Assembly: GCA_919901855.1 (NCBI GenBank)
Contig: CAKKQC010000006.1
Location: 93,896-157,895 of the forward strand
Length of the DNA: 64,000 nucleotides
Origin: a bacterium
Lineage (GTDB): Bacteria > Oederibacteriota > CAKKQC01
Direction of reading: 5' to 3'
The translations under genes were made by a program, and so were the position numbers. The notes below the pieces were generated by a model, which was not told the DNA's origin, did no database searches, and saw nothing but the letters and a program-made list of their open reading frames with translations. Positions 38,380 through 45,149 of the stretch are shown here, piece after piece (the stretch's first letter is position 1; every line of letters begins with the position of its first letter).

Positions 38380-39450
38380 CTATCTCCTCTTGGGCGCTTT
38401 TGGCTTCGGCTGGGCCTTCACCGCTCCGGACTTGATCATGGCCTCGAGGGGGTTGTCCTCGACCTTCAGCGGCAGGTCGATGCGGCAGTGGCGCCGCGAG
38501 GACTCGTAGCCCGCGAAGATGACCTCGGTCGAGCGCAGGGCGTTGTCGGCGCACAGTTCCGACTTACCGCCCTCGCGCACGGCCTTGACCACGGACGCGA
38601 TCGCGCGCTCCTGGACGATGCCGCCGTGGAGCTCCTCGGGCACGGGCACGTTCTCGAAGTCGCGCCGGCCTTTCGTCCACATCCTCAGGACCGGGGCTTC
38701 CCAGCGGAGTTCCGCGATCCCCTTGGAGCCGCTCACGCGCAGGCAGACGCGGTCCGGCCGGTTGCCGCCCGCGATGAAGATTGTCTCGACGTCGTTCTTG
38801 TACCGGACGTGGTAGACGCCTTCCCGCTCGCACGGGGCCCCGAAGATCCGGCCGCCGGTCCAGTGGAGCTGGCCGATGACGGAGACGGCCGGGACCTCGC
38901 CGTTGAACTTGTTGAGCATGTCGAGCCAGTGCGTGCCCCAGTCGTAGAAGTTGGAGGCGTAGGCTTCCATGCGCCAGAGCTTGCCCAGCTTGCCGGTCTG
39001 GCAGAGCCTGGCGAGCACCTGGAACGGGGCGCCGAACCGGCGCTGGTGATTGAACGTGAGCTTGACGCCGTGCTTCCTGCATTCGGCGGCCATCTTCTTC
39101 GCCGGGCCCCAGGCCTCGGCCATGGGCTTCTCGCAGTGAATCGCCTTGACCCCGGCCCTCGCGGTCGCGATTACCATCGGCGCGTGCAAATGCGGCCAGG
39201 TGCAGATGCTGACGATGTGCGGCTTCTCCCGCTTCAGCATCGTGGGGTAGTCGGTGTAGACGCCGCGGGCACCGTACTTGGCGGCGAAGGCCTCGCCGTT
39301 CGCGGGGACGAGATCGGCGCATGCCACGATCTCGACGCCGGGGAGCTTCGCATACCCCTCGGCGTGCGCGTAGGCCATTCCGAATCCCGTCGCCCCGGCG
39401 GTCTGCCAGGGGCGTCCCGTGCCAATGAAAGCAACCTTGAGTGTCTTCAT
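38380..39450 (-). CDS. Gfo/Idh/MocA-family NAD(P)-dependent oxidoreductase
   Basis: 356 residues from ATG 39450, chosen because a -10 lies 7 bases upstream; the frame is open to 39702. Rossmann start 'LKVAFIGTGRPWQTAGATGFG', then 'EKPMAEAWGPAKKMAAECRKHGVKLTFNHQRRFG', with the Lys of the EKP motif that is catalytic in the family. 'FYDWGTHWLDMLNKF' supplies the active-site Asp/His. It oxidises or reduces sugar or inositol-like substrates. It stands back to back with the sugar importer at 39497. Confidence 0.88.
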   Translation of the reverse strand: MKTLKVAFIGTGRPWQTAGATGFGMAYAHAEGYAKLPGVEIVACADLVPANGEAFAAKYGARGVYTDYPTMLKREKPHIVSICTWPHLHAPMVIATARAGVKAIHCEKPMAEAWGPAKKMAAECRKHGVKLTFNHQRRFGAPFQVLARLCQTGKLGKLWRMEAYASNFYDWGTHWLDMLNKFNGEVPAVSVIGQLHWTGGRIFGAPCEREGVYHVRYKNDVETIFIAGGNRPDRVCLRVSGSKGIAELRWEAPVLRMWTKGRRDFENVPVPEELHGGIVQERAIASVVKAVREGGKSELCADNALRSTEVIFAGYESSRRHCRIDLPLKVEDNPLEAMIKSGAVKAQPKPKAPKRR

Positions 39451-39457
39451 GGGGCGC

Positions 39458-39466
39458 AGTATATCA
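39458..39466 (-). promoter_or_regulatory. Extended -10 (TGA-TATACT) of the Gfo/Idh gene
   Basis: Ends 7 bases before ATG 39450. The identical TGATATACT with the same 7-base spacing precedes the sugar isomerase at 45937. Confidence 0.55.
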
Positions 39467-39480
39467 AAGCCGCCGGGGAC

Positions 39481-39489
39481 TGATATGAT
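39481..39489 (+). promoter_or_regulatory. Extended -10 (TGA-TATGAT) of the sugar importer
   Basis: Ends 7 bases before ATG 39497. With the minus-strand box it makes a 46-base divergent promoter. Confidence 0.55.
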
Positions 39490-39496
39490 TGCCGCC

Positions 39497-41842
39497 ATGC
39501 GTGAGGATTCCTCCAGCCGCTGGCTGATCTGGGTCGCCGCCGGGCTCGTCGCCGTCATGGGGACGCTCTGGTGGCTCCGGAGCCGCGAGGCCGCCAAGTT
39601 CGGGTTCGGCCCCGGCCCCGAGGGCCGGACCAAGGTCGTGTACTGGGAGAAGTGGACGGGATTCGAGCGCGTCGCCATGGAGAAGATCGTCAAGGAGTTC
39701 AACGACTCCCAGAGCCGGATCTTCGTCGATTACGTCTCCGTCTCGGCCGTGAACCAGAAGACGCTGGTGGCCACGGCCGGGAACTGCCCACCCGATGTCG
39801 CCGGGCTGTGGGACGGCGACGTCGTCGTCTTCGCCGACAAGGAGGCGCTCCTCCCGCTCGACGACCTCTGCCGCGCGGCCGGGCTCGGGGCCGACTGGTA
39901 CATCCCCGTGTACTGGGACATGTGCCACTACCAGGGGCACATCTGGGCCCTGCCCTCGACGCCGGCGACGACGGCCCTGCACTACAACCGGAAGATGTTC
40001 CGGGCCGCCGGCCTCGATCCCGCCCGGCCGCCTAAGACCTTCGCGGAGCTGGACGCGTACTCGAAGCGGCTCACGAAGATCGACCGGACGGGCCGCATCC
40101 TCCAGATGGGTTTCCTGCCGCCGGAACCGGGTTGGTGGCACTACGGCTGGGGGAGCTTCTGGGGGGGCAAGCTCTGGGACGGCGGCACGAAGGTCCAGAT
40201 CGACTCCGAGCCCTACGTGAAGGCGTTCACGTGGATCCGGACCTACGCCGAGTCCTACGGCGTCCAGTCGCTCCAGAACTTCCGGTCGTCGTTCGGGAAC
40301 TTCTCCTCCCCCCAGAACCCGTTCATGGCCGAGCAGGTGGCCATGGTCCTCCAGGGCGTCTGGATGGCGAACTACATCTTCCAGAACAACCCCAAGCTCG
40401 ACTGGGCGGCGGCGCCGTTCCCGACCGTGAAAGCCGGGGATCCGCCCGTCACGTTCGCGGGGTCGGACATGCTGATGATTCCGAGGGGGGCGAAGCACCC
40501 GAAGGAAGCCTTCGAGTTCATCCGGTACGTCCAGCGGCAGGGCCCGATGGAGAGGCTGTGCCTCTCGCACCGCAAGAACTCGCCCCTGCGCCGCGTGAGC
40601 GACTCGTTCTACAAGAGCCACGAGAATCCGTACATCCGGATGTTCCAGCAGATCGCGTGGAGCCCGAACGCCGTCCACGCCCCGAAGATGAGCGTCTGGA
40701 ACGAGTACAACAACGAGATCGCGAACGCGGTCGAGCGCGTGTGGCTGCTCCAGGCCACCCCGAAGGACGCCCTCGCCGCCGTCAAGGCGCGCATCCAGCC
40801 GGTCTGGGACCACCAACGCGAGGTGCTCGCGGCCGCGCCGTCGAAGCGGCTTCGGGCGGCCCCGTTCCTGATCGCGCTCGGCATCGTCCTCATCGTGATT
40901 ATCGTGGCCCTGTTCAAGGAGCTGTCGGTCCGGCCCGAAGCCGGCGGCGAGCGCCCGAAGATGCTGTTCGGCCACCTCGCCAAGGGGCTTGGGTTCGCGA
41001 GTCCCTGGCTCATCGGGCTCTCGATCTTCGTCCTGTACCCGATCGCGGCCTCGATCGTGTACGCCTTCTGCGACTACTCCGTCCTGTCGGCGCCGAAGTG
41101 GGTGGGGCTATACAACTTCCGCACGATCCTGCGTGACGAGGTCTTCCAGGTGTCGCTGTGGAACACGCTCCGGTACGCGATCATCGCGCTTCCGCTCGGC
41201 ATGATCTTCTCCCTCGCCGTCGCGCTCCTGCTCGATACCAACGTCAAGGGCGTCGGGTTTTACCGTACTTTCGTGTTTCTGCCCTCGGTCACGCCCCTCG
41301 TCGCGTCGGCCATGGTCTGGCTCTGGATCTTCAACGGCGAGTACGGGATCCTCAACGACGGCATCCGGCGCCTTTCTTTCGGCTGGATCCAGCCCGTGGC
41401 GTGGCTCTCGGACGCCCGGTACGCGATGCCGGCCCTGATCCTCATGAGCTTCTGGGGCATCGGGAACACGGTCGTGATCCTGCTCGCGTCCCTCCAGGAC
41501 GTGCCCGTGTCCCTGTACGAGGCCGCGGACATGGACGGGGCTTCCTGGTACCACAAGATCATCCACATCACGCTCCCCATGGTATCGCCGGTCATCTACT
41601 TCAACGTGATCATGGGCATCATCGGCTCGCTCCAGGTCTTCGCCGTGCCCTACATCATGACCGGCGGCGGCCCGGCCCGGTCCACGCTCTTCTATTCCAT
41701 GTACCTCTACGACAACGCCTTCCAGTTCCTGAAGATGGGCTACGCGTGCGCGATGGCCTGGATCCTGTTCCTGATCATCCTCGTCCTCACCGGGGCGGCG
41801 GTGCGTCTCTCGAAGACGCACGTCTACTACATCGGTGGCTGA
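39497..41842 (+). CDS. Sugar ABC importer: extracellular binding protein fused to a permease
   Basis: 781 residues; ATG 39497 is set by the -10. Residues ~10-27 are one membrane helix; ~45-440 are a type 1 extracellular solute-binding domain ('KVVYWEKWTGFERVAMEKIVKEFNDS', 'LPSTPATTALHYNRKMF'). A second helix follows ('FLIALGIVLIVIIVALF'), then a six-helix MalF/UgpA-like permease with the EAA loop 'YEAADMDGASWYHKIIHITLPMVSP'. Binding protein and permease are normally separate genes; a membrane-tethered fused pair would never release the binding protein. A second permease follows; no ATPase gene is nearby. Confidence 0.85.
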   Translation: MREDSSSRWLIWVAAGLVAVMGTLWWLRSREAAKFGFGPGPEGRTKVVYWEKWTGFERVAMEKIVKEFNDSQSRIFVDYVSVSAVNQKTLVATAGNCPPDVAGLWDGDVVVFADKEALLPLDDLCRAAGLGADWYIPVYWDMCHYQGHIWALPSTPATTALHYNRKMFRAAGLDPARPPKTFAELDAYSKRLTKIDRTGRILQMGFLPPEPGWWHYGWGSFWGGKLWDGGTKVQIDSEPYVKAFTWIRTYAESYGVQSLQNFRSSFGNFSSPQNPFMAEQVAMVLQGVWMANYIFQNNPKLDWAAAPFPTVKAGDPPVTFAGSDMLMIPRGAKHPKEAFEFIRYVQRQGPMERLCLSHRKNSPLRRVSDSFYKSHENPYIRMFQQIAWSPNAVHAPKMSVWNEYNNEIANAVERVWLLQATPKDALAAVKARIQPVWDHQREVLAAAPSKRLRAAPFLIALGIVLIVIIVALFKELSVRPEAGGERPKMLFGHLAKGLGFASPWLIGLSIFVLYPIAASIVYAFCDYSVLSAPKWVGLYNFRTILRDEVFQVSLWNTLRYAIIALPLGMIFSLAVALLLDTNVKGVGFYRTFVFLPSVTPLVASAMVWLWIFNGEYGILNDGIRRLSFGWIQPVAWLSDARYAMPALILMSFWGIGNTVVILLASLQDVPVSLYEAADMDGASWYHKIIHITLPMVSPVIYFNVIMGIIGSLQVFAVPYIMTGGGPARSTLFYSMYLYDNAFQFLKMGYACAMAWILFLIILVLTGAAVRLSKTHVYYIGG

Positions 41843-42713: not shown

Positions 42714-42742
42714 GACGTCCGTGAACTGGGAGAGGCGGTAGA

Positions 42743-44263
42743 ATGGCTCATGCGGGTGGCACGGCCGGGAAGAGTCCCTTGACGCGGTTCACGGCTCGAC
42801 TGGCGGCGGTCTGGCTGGCTGCTATCATGCTTCCCATTCCGTGCGGGGCCGCTCGGGCGGCCTCGGCCCTGAGCGAATCCAGTGAAGCCTGCGTCGAGTG
42901 CCACCGGACGGTGACGCCGGGAATCGTCGCCGACTGGGAGGGCGGGGTGCACGCGAAGACGACGCTGGGGGCGGCACTGGGGCGCCCGGCCGGAACGCGC
43001 CGGATGTCCTCGCTCGACATCCCCAGTGAGCTCCGGGATGCCGTAGTCGGGTGTTTCGAGTGCCACGGGCGCAACCCGCAGGGCCATCCGGACACGTTCG
43101 AGCATTTCGGGAAGTCGATTCACGTCGTGGTGACTCCGGCGGACTGCGGAACCTGCCACGGGGCCGAGGTGGCCCAGTACGGCGGCTCGAAGAAGGCGCA
43201 CGCGGTCGGCAACCTGCGTGACAATCCCACTTATCATGCCCTGGTGACGGCGCTGACCTCGACGCGCTCCGTGGCCGGCCATCAAGTGAAGCACGGCGCG
43301 TCGTCCGAGGGCGCCCGGGCGACGAGCTGTTTCGCGTGCCACGGGACGGAGGTCAAGGTCAAGGGCACGAAGACGGTTTCGAGCTCCGTCGGTGACGTAA
43401 TCGTTCCTGTTCTCGAGGGCTGGCCAAACGTAGGGGTTGGCCGGATCAATCCCGATGGGACCCGGGGCGCGTGCACCTCGTGCCATCCACGCCACGGTTT
43501 TTCGATAGAGATCGCGAGGAAGCCCCACACGTGCTCGCAGTGCCACCTCAACCCGGACACGCCGGCATGGGAGGTGTGGGCGGAGAGCAAGCACGGGAAC
43601 ATCACGCTTTCGGACGGGCACGGGTGGGACTGGAGGGCCGTGCCGTGGGTTCCGGGGCGCGACTTCCGCGCGCCATCGTGCGCGGCCTGCCACATGGCGG
43701 GGCTGGCGGCCGCGGACGGGAGCGAGATCGCGGCCCGGAGCCACGACTTCGGGTCGCGCCTGTGGGTGAGGATATTCGGGCTCATTTATTCGCATCCCCA
43801 GCCGCGGAGCGGTCGCACGGCGGGCATCCGCAACGAGGACGGGACGGGACTGCCGACGAGCTTCGCCGGAAGACCCGCGTCGGAGTTCCTGATAGACGCC
43901 GGAGAGCAGTTGCGGCGGAAGGAGAGGATGCGGTCCGTCTGCCGGGCCTGCCATTCCTCGAGCTGGGCCGACGGCCACTTCGCGCGGATGGATTCCGCGG
44001 TGGCGGAGGCCGATACGATGGTGAGGGCGGCGACCGTGCTCATGCAGTCGGTGTGGAAGGCCGGCAAAGCGTCCCCGGCGAACCCGTTCGACGAGGAGCC
44101 CGAGTACGCATGGATGCGCCAGTGGCTCTTCTATGCGAACTCGGTCCGGTACGCGGCGGCGATGGGTGGCCCGGATTACGCCGGGTTCAAGAACGGCTGG
44201 TTCGCCATGAACGAGAACCTGGAGAAACTGCGCAAGGCCGCTGGATTCGGAATCAAGCGGTAA
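42743..44263 (+). CDS. Octaheme c-type cytochrome, hydroxylamine-oxidoreductase-like
   Basis: 506 residues; GGGAGAGG lies 7 bases before the ATG. A signal peptide ('AAVWLAAIMLPIPCGAARA') is followed by eight CxxCH haem motifs: CVECH, CFECH, CGTCH, CFACH, CTSCH, CSQCH, CAACH and CRACH. The start of the mature part ('CVECHRTVTPGIVADWEGGVHA') and the end ('YAGFKNGWFAMNENLEKLRKAAG') follow the HAO/octaheme nitrite-reductase type of fold, in which haem 4 or so is catalytic. Members oxidise hydroxylamine or hydrazine, or reduce nitrite; the Tyr that cross-links the catalytic haem in true HAO was not located, so reduction is more likely. No quinone-linked partner is next to it. Confidence 0.8.
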   Translation: MAHAGGTAGKSPLTRFTARLAAVWLAAIMLPIPCGAARAASALSESSEACVECHRTVTPGIVADWEGGVHAKTTLGAALGRPAGTRRMSSLDIPSELRDAVVGCFECHGRNPQGHPDTFEHFGKSIHVVVTPADCGTCHGAEVAQYGGSKKAHAVGNLRDNPTYHALVTALTSTRSVAGHQVKHGASSEGARATSCFACHGTEVKVKGTKTVSSSVGDVIVPVLEGWPNVGVGRINPDGTRGACTSCHPRHGFSIEIARKPHTCSQCHLNPDTPAWEVWAESKHGNITLSDGHGWDWRAVPWVPGRDFRAPSCAACHMAGLAAADGSEIAARSHDFGSRLWVRIFGLIYSHPQPRSGRTAGIRNEDGTGLPTSFAGRPASEFLIDAGEQLRRKERMRSVCRACHSSSWADGHFARMDSAVAEADTMVRAATVLMQSVWKAGKASPANPFDEEPEYAWMRQWLFYANSVRYAAAMGGPDYAGFKNGWFAMNENLEKLRKAAGFGIKR

Positions 44264-44266
44264 CGG

Positions 44267-44932
44267 CTAACCGCCGCCTTTCACCGAATCCATGAGGCGC
44301 TTCGCCTCGGCGAGGAAGAAGGCCTTGAGCTCGTCCAGCGTGAGGGGCTTCAGCATCCGCGGGAGTCGTTCAATCGTTCGCACCCGCCCGAAGGCTTGCG
44401 CCAGCCAGTAGGGCTCGACGCCGACGTGCTTCTTGGGAAGTTCCGCCAGGACCGTCGCAAGGGGAAAGAGATCCCTCTGGATAAAGTACACGTCCACGTA
44501 ATCGCGCTCGGCGGAGCGGTCGAAGAGCGCCGAGATCTTGTTGCAGGATATGTCCATCTCGTGGTCGACCGGGAAACCGATGGCGTGATCGCGGCGAATC
44601 GGCATGATCCGCGCGGGGGCATCCTGGGCGAGATGAATCTTCAGCGGGCCGTCGGCGTGATCGAGAAAACACTCGGCAAATGTGGCGTACGTGCGAGTAA
44701 CCCTGAACCCGGCGTTCAGCTCCCGCGCGCACGCTTCGACCTGCCGGACACCGGCCTCCACGCGCCCGTCCTCGTCCGTAAAGAAGTCGAGGTCTTCGGA
44801 GAGACGGTGCTGGAGATAGCAGGCCGCCAGCGCCGTGCCGCCGGTGAGAAAGAAGCTCCGCGAGAACTCCGACCGGCTAAGCCGGGCGAGCAGTTCTTGC
44901 TGGAGTGGGGTGAGAATCCGTTCCGGGGACAT
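44267..44932 (-). CDS. AbiEii/AbiGii-type nucleotidyltransferase (toxin-like)
   Basis: 221 residues. 'FFLTGGTALAACYLQHRLSEDLDFFTDED' carries the GG...DxD nucleotidyltransferase core; 'DISCNKISALFDRSAERDYVDVYFIQRDL' is the conserved second half of the AbiEii family (KxxxLxxRxxxRDxxDxY). Such proteins act in abortive infection by modifying tRNA or other RNA. Its start lies inside the upstream partner gene (56-base overlap), so the two are translated together. Confidence 0.85.
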   Translation of the reverse strand: MSPERILTPLQQELLARLSRSEFSRSFFLTGGTALAACYLQHRLSEDLDFFTDEDGRVEAGVRQVEACARELNAGFRVTRTYATFAECFLDHADGPLKIHLAQDAPARIMPIRRDHAIGFPVDHEMDISCNKISALFDRSAERDYVDVYFIQRDLFPLATVLAELPKKHVGVEPYWLAQAFGRVRTIERLPRMLKPLTLDELKAFFLAEAKRLMDSVKGGG

Positions 44933-45149
44933 TGCTGCAGCTCAGATACCATTCCCAGAATTCGCGCACCGTTCGGGGAATTCGCATGTCGGGAAGCCAG
45001 CGGGCGATGAGCTTGAAGTCGAGTTCGCGCACCTCGGCCGCCGTTCCGCGCTCGAGGACGCGGGCATAGTACCACCGGCGGAAGGCGTCGGTCTCGTAGT
45101 CCGCCTCCGTCCAGGGCATGTCCCACAGGAGCGCCTTGTTCACCTTCAT
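44877..45149 (-). CDS. Partner of the AbiEii-like toxin (antitoxin candidate)
   Basis: 90 residues. 'ALLWDMPWTEADYETDAFRRWYYARVLERGTAAEVRELDFKLIARWLPDMRIPRTVREFWEWYL' resembles the short DUF6922-type helical proteins paired with AbiEii-like genes. The C-terminal ~17 residues are read over the start of the toxin gene and are low-complexity. ATG 45149 has an extended -10 six bases upstream. Antitoxin role is inferred from position. Confidence 0.7.
   Translation of the reverse strand: MKVNKALLWDMPWTEADYETDAFRRWYYARVLERGTAAEVRELDFKLIARWLPDMRIPRTVREFWEWYLSCSNVPGTDSHPTPARTARPA

Follow-up and report, generated by a model that had tools for sequence, protein, structure and literature searches.

The closest match in the Protein Data Bank (PDB) to the protein described here is chain A of entry 4qo5, which carries the molecule name 'Hypothetical multiheme protein' and which we take to be IhOCC, the octahaem cytochrome of Ignicoccus hospitalis. 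IhOCC is a membrane-associated trimer, and the paper describing it reportedly deals with its structure and an HAO-like activity and not with peroxide chemistry. In HAO itself Asp267 and His268 (NeHAO numbering) presumably act as the catalytic distal pair. Proteins of the HAO family span 65 phyla, with confirmed functions in one clade, and the other two clades are mostly of unknown function (PMC9213671). The active-site haem of HAO is haem 4 (PMC8840924). A tyrosine cross-link makes P460, and lack of this tyrosine has been read as a sign of a reductive enzyme (PMC12758564).

The window, a stretch of bacterial DNA of 64,000 nucleotides, contains a gene for an octahaem cytochrome c that falls in the HAO superfamily, in its IhOCC-like branch, and that is predicted from its N-terminus to be exported. 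The features of the gene are collected in Table 1. Of the frames in these 64 kb that run from stop to stop for at least 60 codons, it is alone in having two or more CxxCH motifs, and its product has exactly eight. The sole cysteine outside these motifs, Cys34, lies in the N-terminal segment, and the six most hydrophobic 19-residue windows of the protein begin at residues 16–22. Maturation of c-type cytochromes takes place outside the cytoplasm. An earlier note on this DNA had described an exported protein of 506 residues with eight CxxCH motifs, and the reading frame, the motif count and the export-like N-terminus all agree with it. Its assignment of an octahaem protein to the HAO superfamily likewise agrees with the HAO-family PDB matches and with the Pfam matches, which include PF13447 (62 bits, cut-off 21.9) and PF13435 (40 bits, cut-off 20.8). 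Two other database names were rejected, namely hydrazine dehydrogenase (NCBIfam, 57 bits, far under the cut-off of 900) and MtrC/MtrF (Pfam, 23 bits, under the cut-off of 30). A motif scan of the 506 residues found no CxxCK, CX15CH or CX17CH, and a promoter and terminator scan around the gene found nothing. A structure model of the protein, calculated from the six-row A1 alignment, was poor, with a mean pLDDT of 43.9.

Table 1. Features of the IhOCC-like octahaem cytochrome c gene (positions are those of the window).
Feature	Position	Strand	Basis or remark
IhOCC-like octahaem cytochrome c gene	42743..44263	+	ATG start, 506 aa
Purine-rich ribosome-binding-like stretch, 7 nt 5' of ATG	42729..42735	+	Putative, from sequence reading
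N-terminal export signal segment, residues 1-40	42743..42862	+	Hydropathy; cleavage site putative
Haem motif 1, CVECH, residues 50-54	42890..42904	+	Motif scan
Haem motif 2, CFECH, residues 104-108	43052..43066	+	Motif scan
Haem motif 3, CGTCH, residues 135-139	43145..43159	+	Motif scan
Haem motif 4, CFACH, residues 196-200	43328..43342	+	Aligned to NeHAO catalytic haem-4 motif (profile alignment)
Haem motif 5, CTSCH, residues 244-248	43472..43486	+	Motif scan
Haem motif 6, CSQCH, residues 264-268	43532..43546	+	Motif scan
Asp272-Thr273, at NeHAO Asp267-His268 place; Asp present, His gone	43556..43561	+	Profile alignment
Haem motif 7, CAACH, residues 313-317	43679..43693	+	Motif scan
Segment with branch-specific Arg343, Tyr349 and His351	43769..43795	+	Conservation; candidate distal replacements (hypothetical role)
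Haem motif 8, CRACH, residues 400-404	43940..43954	+	Motif scan
Phe482, at NeHAO cross-link Tyr467 place	44186..44188	+	Profile alignment

The PDB sequence search returned eight hits at E ≤ 0.1. Of these 4qo5_A scored 440 bits, aligning with the window protein over two main blocks, and the next seven, all HAO-family chains, scored 52–80 bits. KSB1, Elusimicrobia, Thermodesulfovibrionales and bins carrying the names Chloroherpeton and Desulfomonile supplied five further relatives with 43–53% identity. When genomes sampled around four relatives were searched with the profile A1 at a member threshold of E ≤ 1e-90, members were found in 102 of 395 genomes (the phylum of the Desulfomonile-named bin), 54 of 395, 17 of 391 and 4 of 82, counts that include the four relatives themselves. 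In a tree of 73 rows the 65 rows of the branch, including 4qo5, stand apart from eight HAO-type rows with an SH-aLRT support of 100. Within the branch the window protein pairs with L160, from the class of G062 (support 93), and it is most similar to L154, with 55% identity. This was a quick tree in which long branches and odd residue composition were flagged, the window row among them, so that finer placements, including that of 4qo5 within the branch, are unsure.

On these sequence comparisons we assign the window protein to the IhOCC-like branch and not to classical HAO, ONR, OTR or MccA. The description 'HAO-like' in the earlier note thus holds for the superfamily and fails for the classical families that it had named for comparison, given the 440 bits to 4qo5 against at most 80 bits to other chains and the split in the tree. 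Classical HAO was rejected on its scores and on the lack of both the cross-linking tyrosine and the distal histidine. CX15CH is the haem motif of the MccA sulfite reductase; the window protein has none, and there is no MccA chain among the eight PDB hits at E ≤ 0.1. Nor do these eight include a solved OTR chain. ONR and NrfA were set aside for want of a CXXCK haem motif, which marks them (PMC8840924).

The profile alignment places Cys196, Cys199 and His200 of the window protein on the haem-4 motif of NeHAO. At the position of the cross-linking Tyr467, a residue that the earlier note had proposed to look for, the window protein has Phe482, and phenylalanine is found in all 65 rows of the branch (64 bacterial members and 4qo5). 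The position of Asp267 is aspartate in 65 of 65 rows, and that of His268 is valine in 58, threonine in three (the window protein included), alanine in two and leucine in two, but never histidine. The HAO-type relatives, in contrast, have Asp-His in eight of eight and tryptophan at the tyrosine position in eight of eight. Phenylalanine for Tyr467 together with the lack of histidine after the aspartate is therefore a simple sequence rule that divides the two branches. Since both the cross-linking tyrosine and the distal histidine are missing, a P460 haem would not be formed and a reductase is to be expected; oxidation of hydroxylamine by a P460 haem is accordingly not predicted for this protein. 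Three residues are conserved specifically in the branch, namely Arg343 (65 of 65), Tyr349 (64 of 65) and His351 (61 of 65), in a region that is gappy in the alignment with the outgroup. Their conservation suggests that they might rebuild the distal pocket.

The window gene starts 29 bp past the stop of a same-strand ABC-transporter permease gene, and its 3' end adjoins an AbiEii gene on the opposite strand. Neighbours tested against Pfam are parts of a sugar ABC transporter, GFO/IDH, AbiEii, TIM-barrel, PGA_cap, PIN and UPF0175 genes, and two neighbouring ORFs have no Pfam match. Among these tested neighbours there is no cytochrome-maturation, quinone or nitrogen gene, as the earlier note had observed, and HMMs built from the clusters described below found no core stress (oxidant-defence) gene beside this copy. 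The third-position GC is 0.85 in the window gene and 0.81 in AbiEii, compared with 0.88–0.97 in eight other genes measured; for the cytochrome gene we take the low value as a hint of acquisition and no more. Two side observations concern this surrounding DNA. The AbiEii nucleotidyltransferase gene (44270–44932, minus strand) and a weakly DUF6922-like gene (44880–45149, minus strand; 21 bits, cut-off 27), directly against the cytochrome gene, may form a type IV toxin–antitoxin pair. An ORF of 807 residues (39419–41839, plus strand) fuses a solute-binding domain with an ABC permease domain in one frame.

The word 'orphan', used in the earlier note, is apt locally but not for the genome as a whole (4.68 Mb in 91 contigs). 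A second octahaem cytochrome of 505 residues, P0001, is encoded on contig C21 (L025:13950–15464, minus strand). It shares 31% of its residues with the window protein and is of the HAO type, with Asp-His present and tryptophan at the tyrosine position. Its gene adjoins an amidohydrolase gene (Pfam), with a GFO/IDH-like gene, recognized by eye, farther on; HMMs for nap-like genes gave no match nearby. Contig C10 has an ORF with 11 CxxCH motifs of the paired-CxxCH type (L024:5295–8507, about 189.3–192.5 kb), near a weak ResB gene, a CcsA gene and a Wzy_C/TPR gene. The search for ccm or ccs genes that the earlier note had proposed found ResB together with CcsA at two sites of this contig, the second ResB match being weak (22 bits, or 28 bits with its neighbours). 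Judged from their sequences, these genes represent a System II route of cytochrome maturation. A search with the window protein of 58 other genomes, 44 of them from the same phylum, gave matches in four (best E value 1.4e-29); identity was at most 35% in the strongest stretch of each, and by their scores none belonged to the IhOCC type. As far as these genomes show, an IhOCC-like gene is thus not a trait of the source phylum. The window gene may have been acquired in its organism.

Sequence of up to 15.5 kb was fetched around 60 members of the branch, which with L005, L006 and L007 (shorter flanks) and the window gave 64 loci; these represent 62 of the 177 matching genomes, picked for high scores or long flanks, together with G060 and the window. 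Neighbours were clustered without preselected families, with Pfam names from cluster representatives only. After the cytochrome itself, the commonest cluster is an FMN reductase, found in 21 of the 64 loci and directly downstream in 17. Other clusters are a flavodiiron protein (20 loci), rubrerythrin (19), AhpC/TSA (11), a Fur-family regulator (11; its best NCBIfam match is PerR, below cut-off) and desulfoferrodoxin (8). A HEAT-repeat protein of about 234 residues also recurs near these genes, in ten of the 64 loci (for example L126:8675–9376).

Marker HMMs derived from these same clusters were compared between the 64 loci and 40 control windows taken from other parts of 30 study genomes. The core stress families include rubrerythrin, flavodiiron protein, desulfoferrodoxin, Fur/PerR and others. 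At least one of them lies within about 7 kb in 35 of the 64 loci and in none of the 40 controls, and at least two in 22 of the 64 and again in no control; an FMN reductase is detected in 22 loci compared with one control. The loci are related by descent, so the significance of this association is overstated. By group, a core stress gene is present in 14 of 25 loci from the phylum of G063, 15 of 21 from the phylum of G061, four of 13 from the class of G062, one of three from the phylum of G059 and the single locus of G060; the window has none, and 29 of the 64 loci lack any. The presence of a stress gene changes at least 18 times on the tree.

Because the marker HMMs came from the study set, a held-out test used Pfam models and 80 further genomes with a member of the branch, namely 50 of the 77 left over in the first sample and 30 of the 33 left over in the second. 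A flavodiiron gene (PF19583) lies no more than 10 kb from the cytochrome gene in eight of the 50 and 17 of the 30, where 0.3–0.5 would be expected in each, or 25 of 80 in total against about 0.8 expected. Rubrerythrin (PF02915) is found within the same distance in at least seven of the 50 and at least 12 of the 30, with the same expectation of 0.3–0.5 each.

The arrangements are distinct, comprising rubrerythrin–cytochrome–FMN reductase, flavodiiron–cytochrome, peroxiredoxin–cytochrome and cytochrome–desulfoferrodoxin. The first of these lies on one strand in L132, L134, L143, L145, L147 and L005, with gaps of 10–112 bp and then −13 to 9 bp, as measured from longest-ORF starts. A peroxiredoxin-like gene stands 19–121 bp upstream of the cytochrome gene in L007, L116, L117 and L128, and that of L117 opens with an export-like segment. 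In 26 of the 64 loci one of the listed families is encoded at most 300 bp away on the same strand.

Genomes that carry an HAO-type paralogue provide a contrast. These paralogues occur in 37 of 390 genomes from the phylum of G063, and the 37 loci examined comprise 35 of these matches (G064 and G252 were left out, being near contig starts), L251 and the copy in the source genome of the window. A core stress gene is found at one of these 37 loci, compared with the 14 of 25 IhOCC-like loci from the same phylum. A NapA-like or NapG-like gene is present at 18 of 37 HAO-type loci against three of 64 IhOCC-like loci, the latter not above controls. Taken singly, the NapA-like HMM matches at 13 of 37, two of 64 and three of 40 control windows, and the NapG-like HMM at 14 of 37, one of 64 and three of 40; the NapA-like molybdoenzymes score 648 bits against a cut-off of 904 and are not proven NapA. 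Both loci could be compared in 12 genomes. In G063, G165 and G375 the HAO-type locus carries nap-like genes and the IhOCC-like locus a full stress set, and G289 has a NapA-like gene at the former and SOD at the latter. G393 and G164 have the stress set without a nap-like gene, G140, G446, G372 and G092 have nap-like genes without a stress gene, and G084 and G059 have neither.

These oxygen- and peroxide-defence neighbours suggest that many members of the branch protect anaerobes rather than breathe nitrogen compounds. In our view it is an even call whether the commonest role is that of a periplasmic reductase that would remove oxidants, with H2O2 or O2 as the first candidates and then NO or hydroxylamine. 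More tentatively, and with slightly more doubt than belief, we propose that IhOCC-like proteins form a widespread class of oxidant-defence reductases of the periplasm, so far without an assigned role, which would remove peroxide, oxygen or NO for anaerobes and of which the archaeal IhOCC would be a relative of the same kind. Members of this class would have the HAO fold, lack the P460 cross-link and the distal histidine, and carry the conserved Arg, Tyr and His segment. Such an enzyme would be exported to the periplasm and there matured, presumably by System II. Electrons from a periplasmic cytochrome or the quinol pool would enter at the outer haems and run along the octahaem array to haem 4, which, as an open site without P460, would reduce a small oxidized molecule in the periplasm. 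The enzyme would thereby form the periplasmic arm of a stress defence that also includes rubrerythrin, flavodiiron protein and desulfoferrodoxin. Against this role stand the lack of stress neighbours at the window copy and their low frequency in its nearest group, the class of G062. Since the gene may also have been acquired, the role of the window copy itself would be carried over from its relatives by homology.

A second reading, unlikely but deserving more weight than those that follow it, is a nitrogen-oxide reductase that would convert nitrite, NO or hydroxylamine to ammonium, either for respiration or for NO defence. HAO relatives without the tyrosine have been reported or predicted to be reductive (PMC12758564; PMC5317091), IhOCC has been grouped with octaheme nitrite reductases (PMC11024163), and flavodiiron neighbours can be NO reductases; among those found here the NCBIfam model 'anaerobic nitric oxide reductase flavorubredoxin' gave 492 bits, below the cut-off of 635. 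The branch, however, lacks the distal histidine of the HAO-type relatives, nap-like genes near its members are at control level, and the neighbours tested around the window copy include no nitrogen gene. Of the nitrite, hydroxylamine or sulfur chemistry suggested by the earlier note, P460-type hydroxylamine oxidation is disfavoured and reduction of nitrite or hydroxylamine keeps a place, while the neighbourhoods of the wider branch, though not that of the window copy, favour oxidant defence over nitrogen or sulfur respiration.

A terminal reductase for sulfur compounds, or another respiratory terminal reductase, is improbable. Sulfur reduction has been proposed for proteins of Tharpellota in clade I of the HAO family, and the same fold family includes the sulfur enzymes OTR and MccA (PMC9213671). 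Members of the IhOCC-like branch are frequent in the phylum to which the Desulfomonile-named bin belongs, and an MBL-rhodanese gene recurs near three of the 64 loci; but this gene aside, there is no sulfur-respiration gene among the recurrent neighbours tested with Pfam, and the window protein has neither the PDB matches nor the CX15CH motif noted above for OTR and MccA. We think it hardly likely that the protein is a pure electron-transfer cytochrome without catalysis, such as a hydrogenase-linked relay, which would not obviously need the nearly or strictly conserved aspartate, haem-4 motif and branch-specific Arg, Tyr and His, even though octahaem proteins of I. hospitalis, of hypothetical function, were reduced by its native hydrogenase (PMC4429474) and NiFe hydrogenase subunit and maturation protease genes lie just upstream of the cytochrome gene in three of the 13 loci from the class of G062 (L153, 3694–6917; L154; L155). 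In three further loci of this class (L159, L161 and L163) ccm genes (Cytochrom_C_asm, CcmE and CcmF) lie just downstream; the Pfam names come from representatives, L153 for the hydrogenase and L159 and L161 for ccm. Taken with the I. hospitalis hydrogenase data and the listing among nitrite reductases, these neighbours indicate that roles may differ within the branch.

If the oxidant-defence role is correct, genomes credited with nitrite or hydroxylamine chemistry on the basis of such genes would be misread. The branch itself is known. In the literature searched, which left subscription journals mostly outside, we found no statement linking octahaem or HAO-family genes to rubrerythrin, flavodiiron or desulfoferrodoxin neighbours.

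Comparison with described proteins places the window protein as a further member of a branch that is already in print as IhOCC and probably also as HAO5A. It shares with IhOCC the phenylalanine at the Tyr467 position and the loop with aspartate but without histidine, and differs in being bacterial and in having Thr273 where the archaeal protein has valine. The HAO5A group of anammox bacteria probably belongs to the same branch, as it is described as clustering with the archaeal Ignicoccus islandicus and Ferroglobus placidus (PMC12758564). With the reductive HAO or eHao proteins that lack the tyrosine and are encoded near nap genes, the window protein has in common the octahaem arrangement, the missing cross-link and a predicted reductive function (PMC5317091). 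The HAO-type rows of our alignment differ from it in keeping Asp-His, in having tryptophan at the tyrosine position and in being often linked to nap-like genes. Classical HAO (1fgj and 4fas) shares the superfamily, the haem-4 motif and Asp267 with the window protein, but it has Tyr467 and His268 and scores 58 bits against it.
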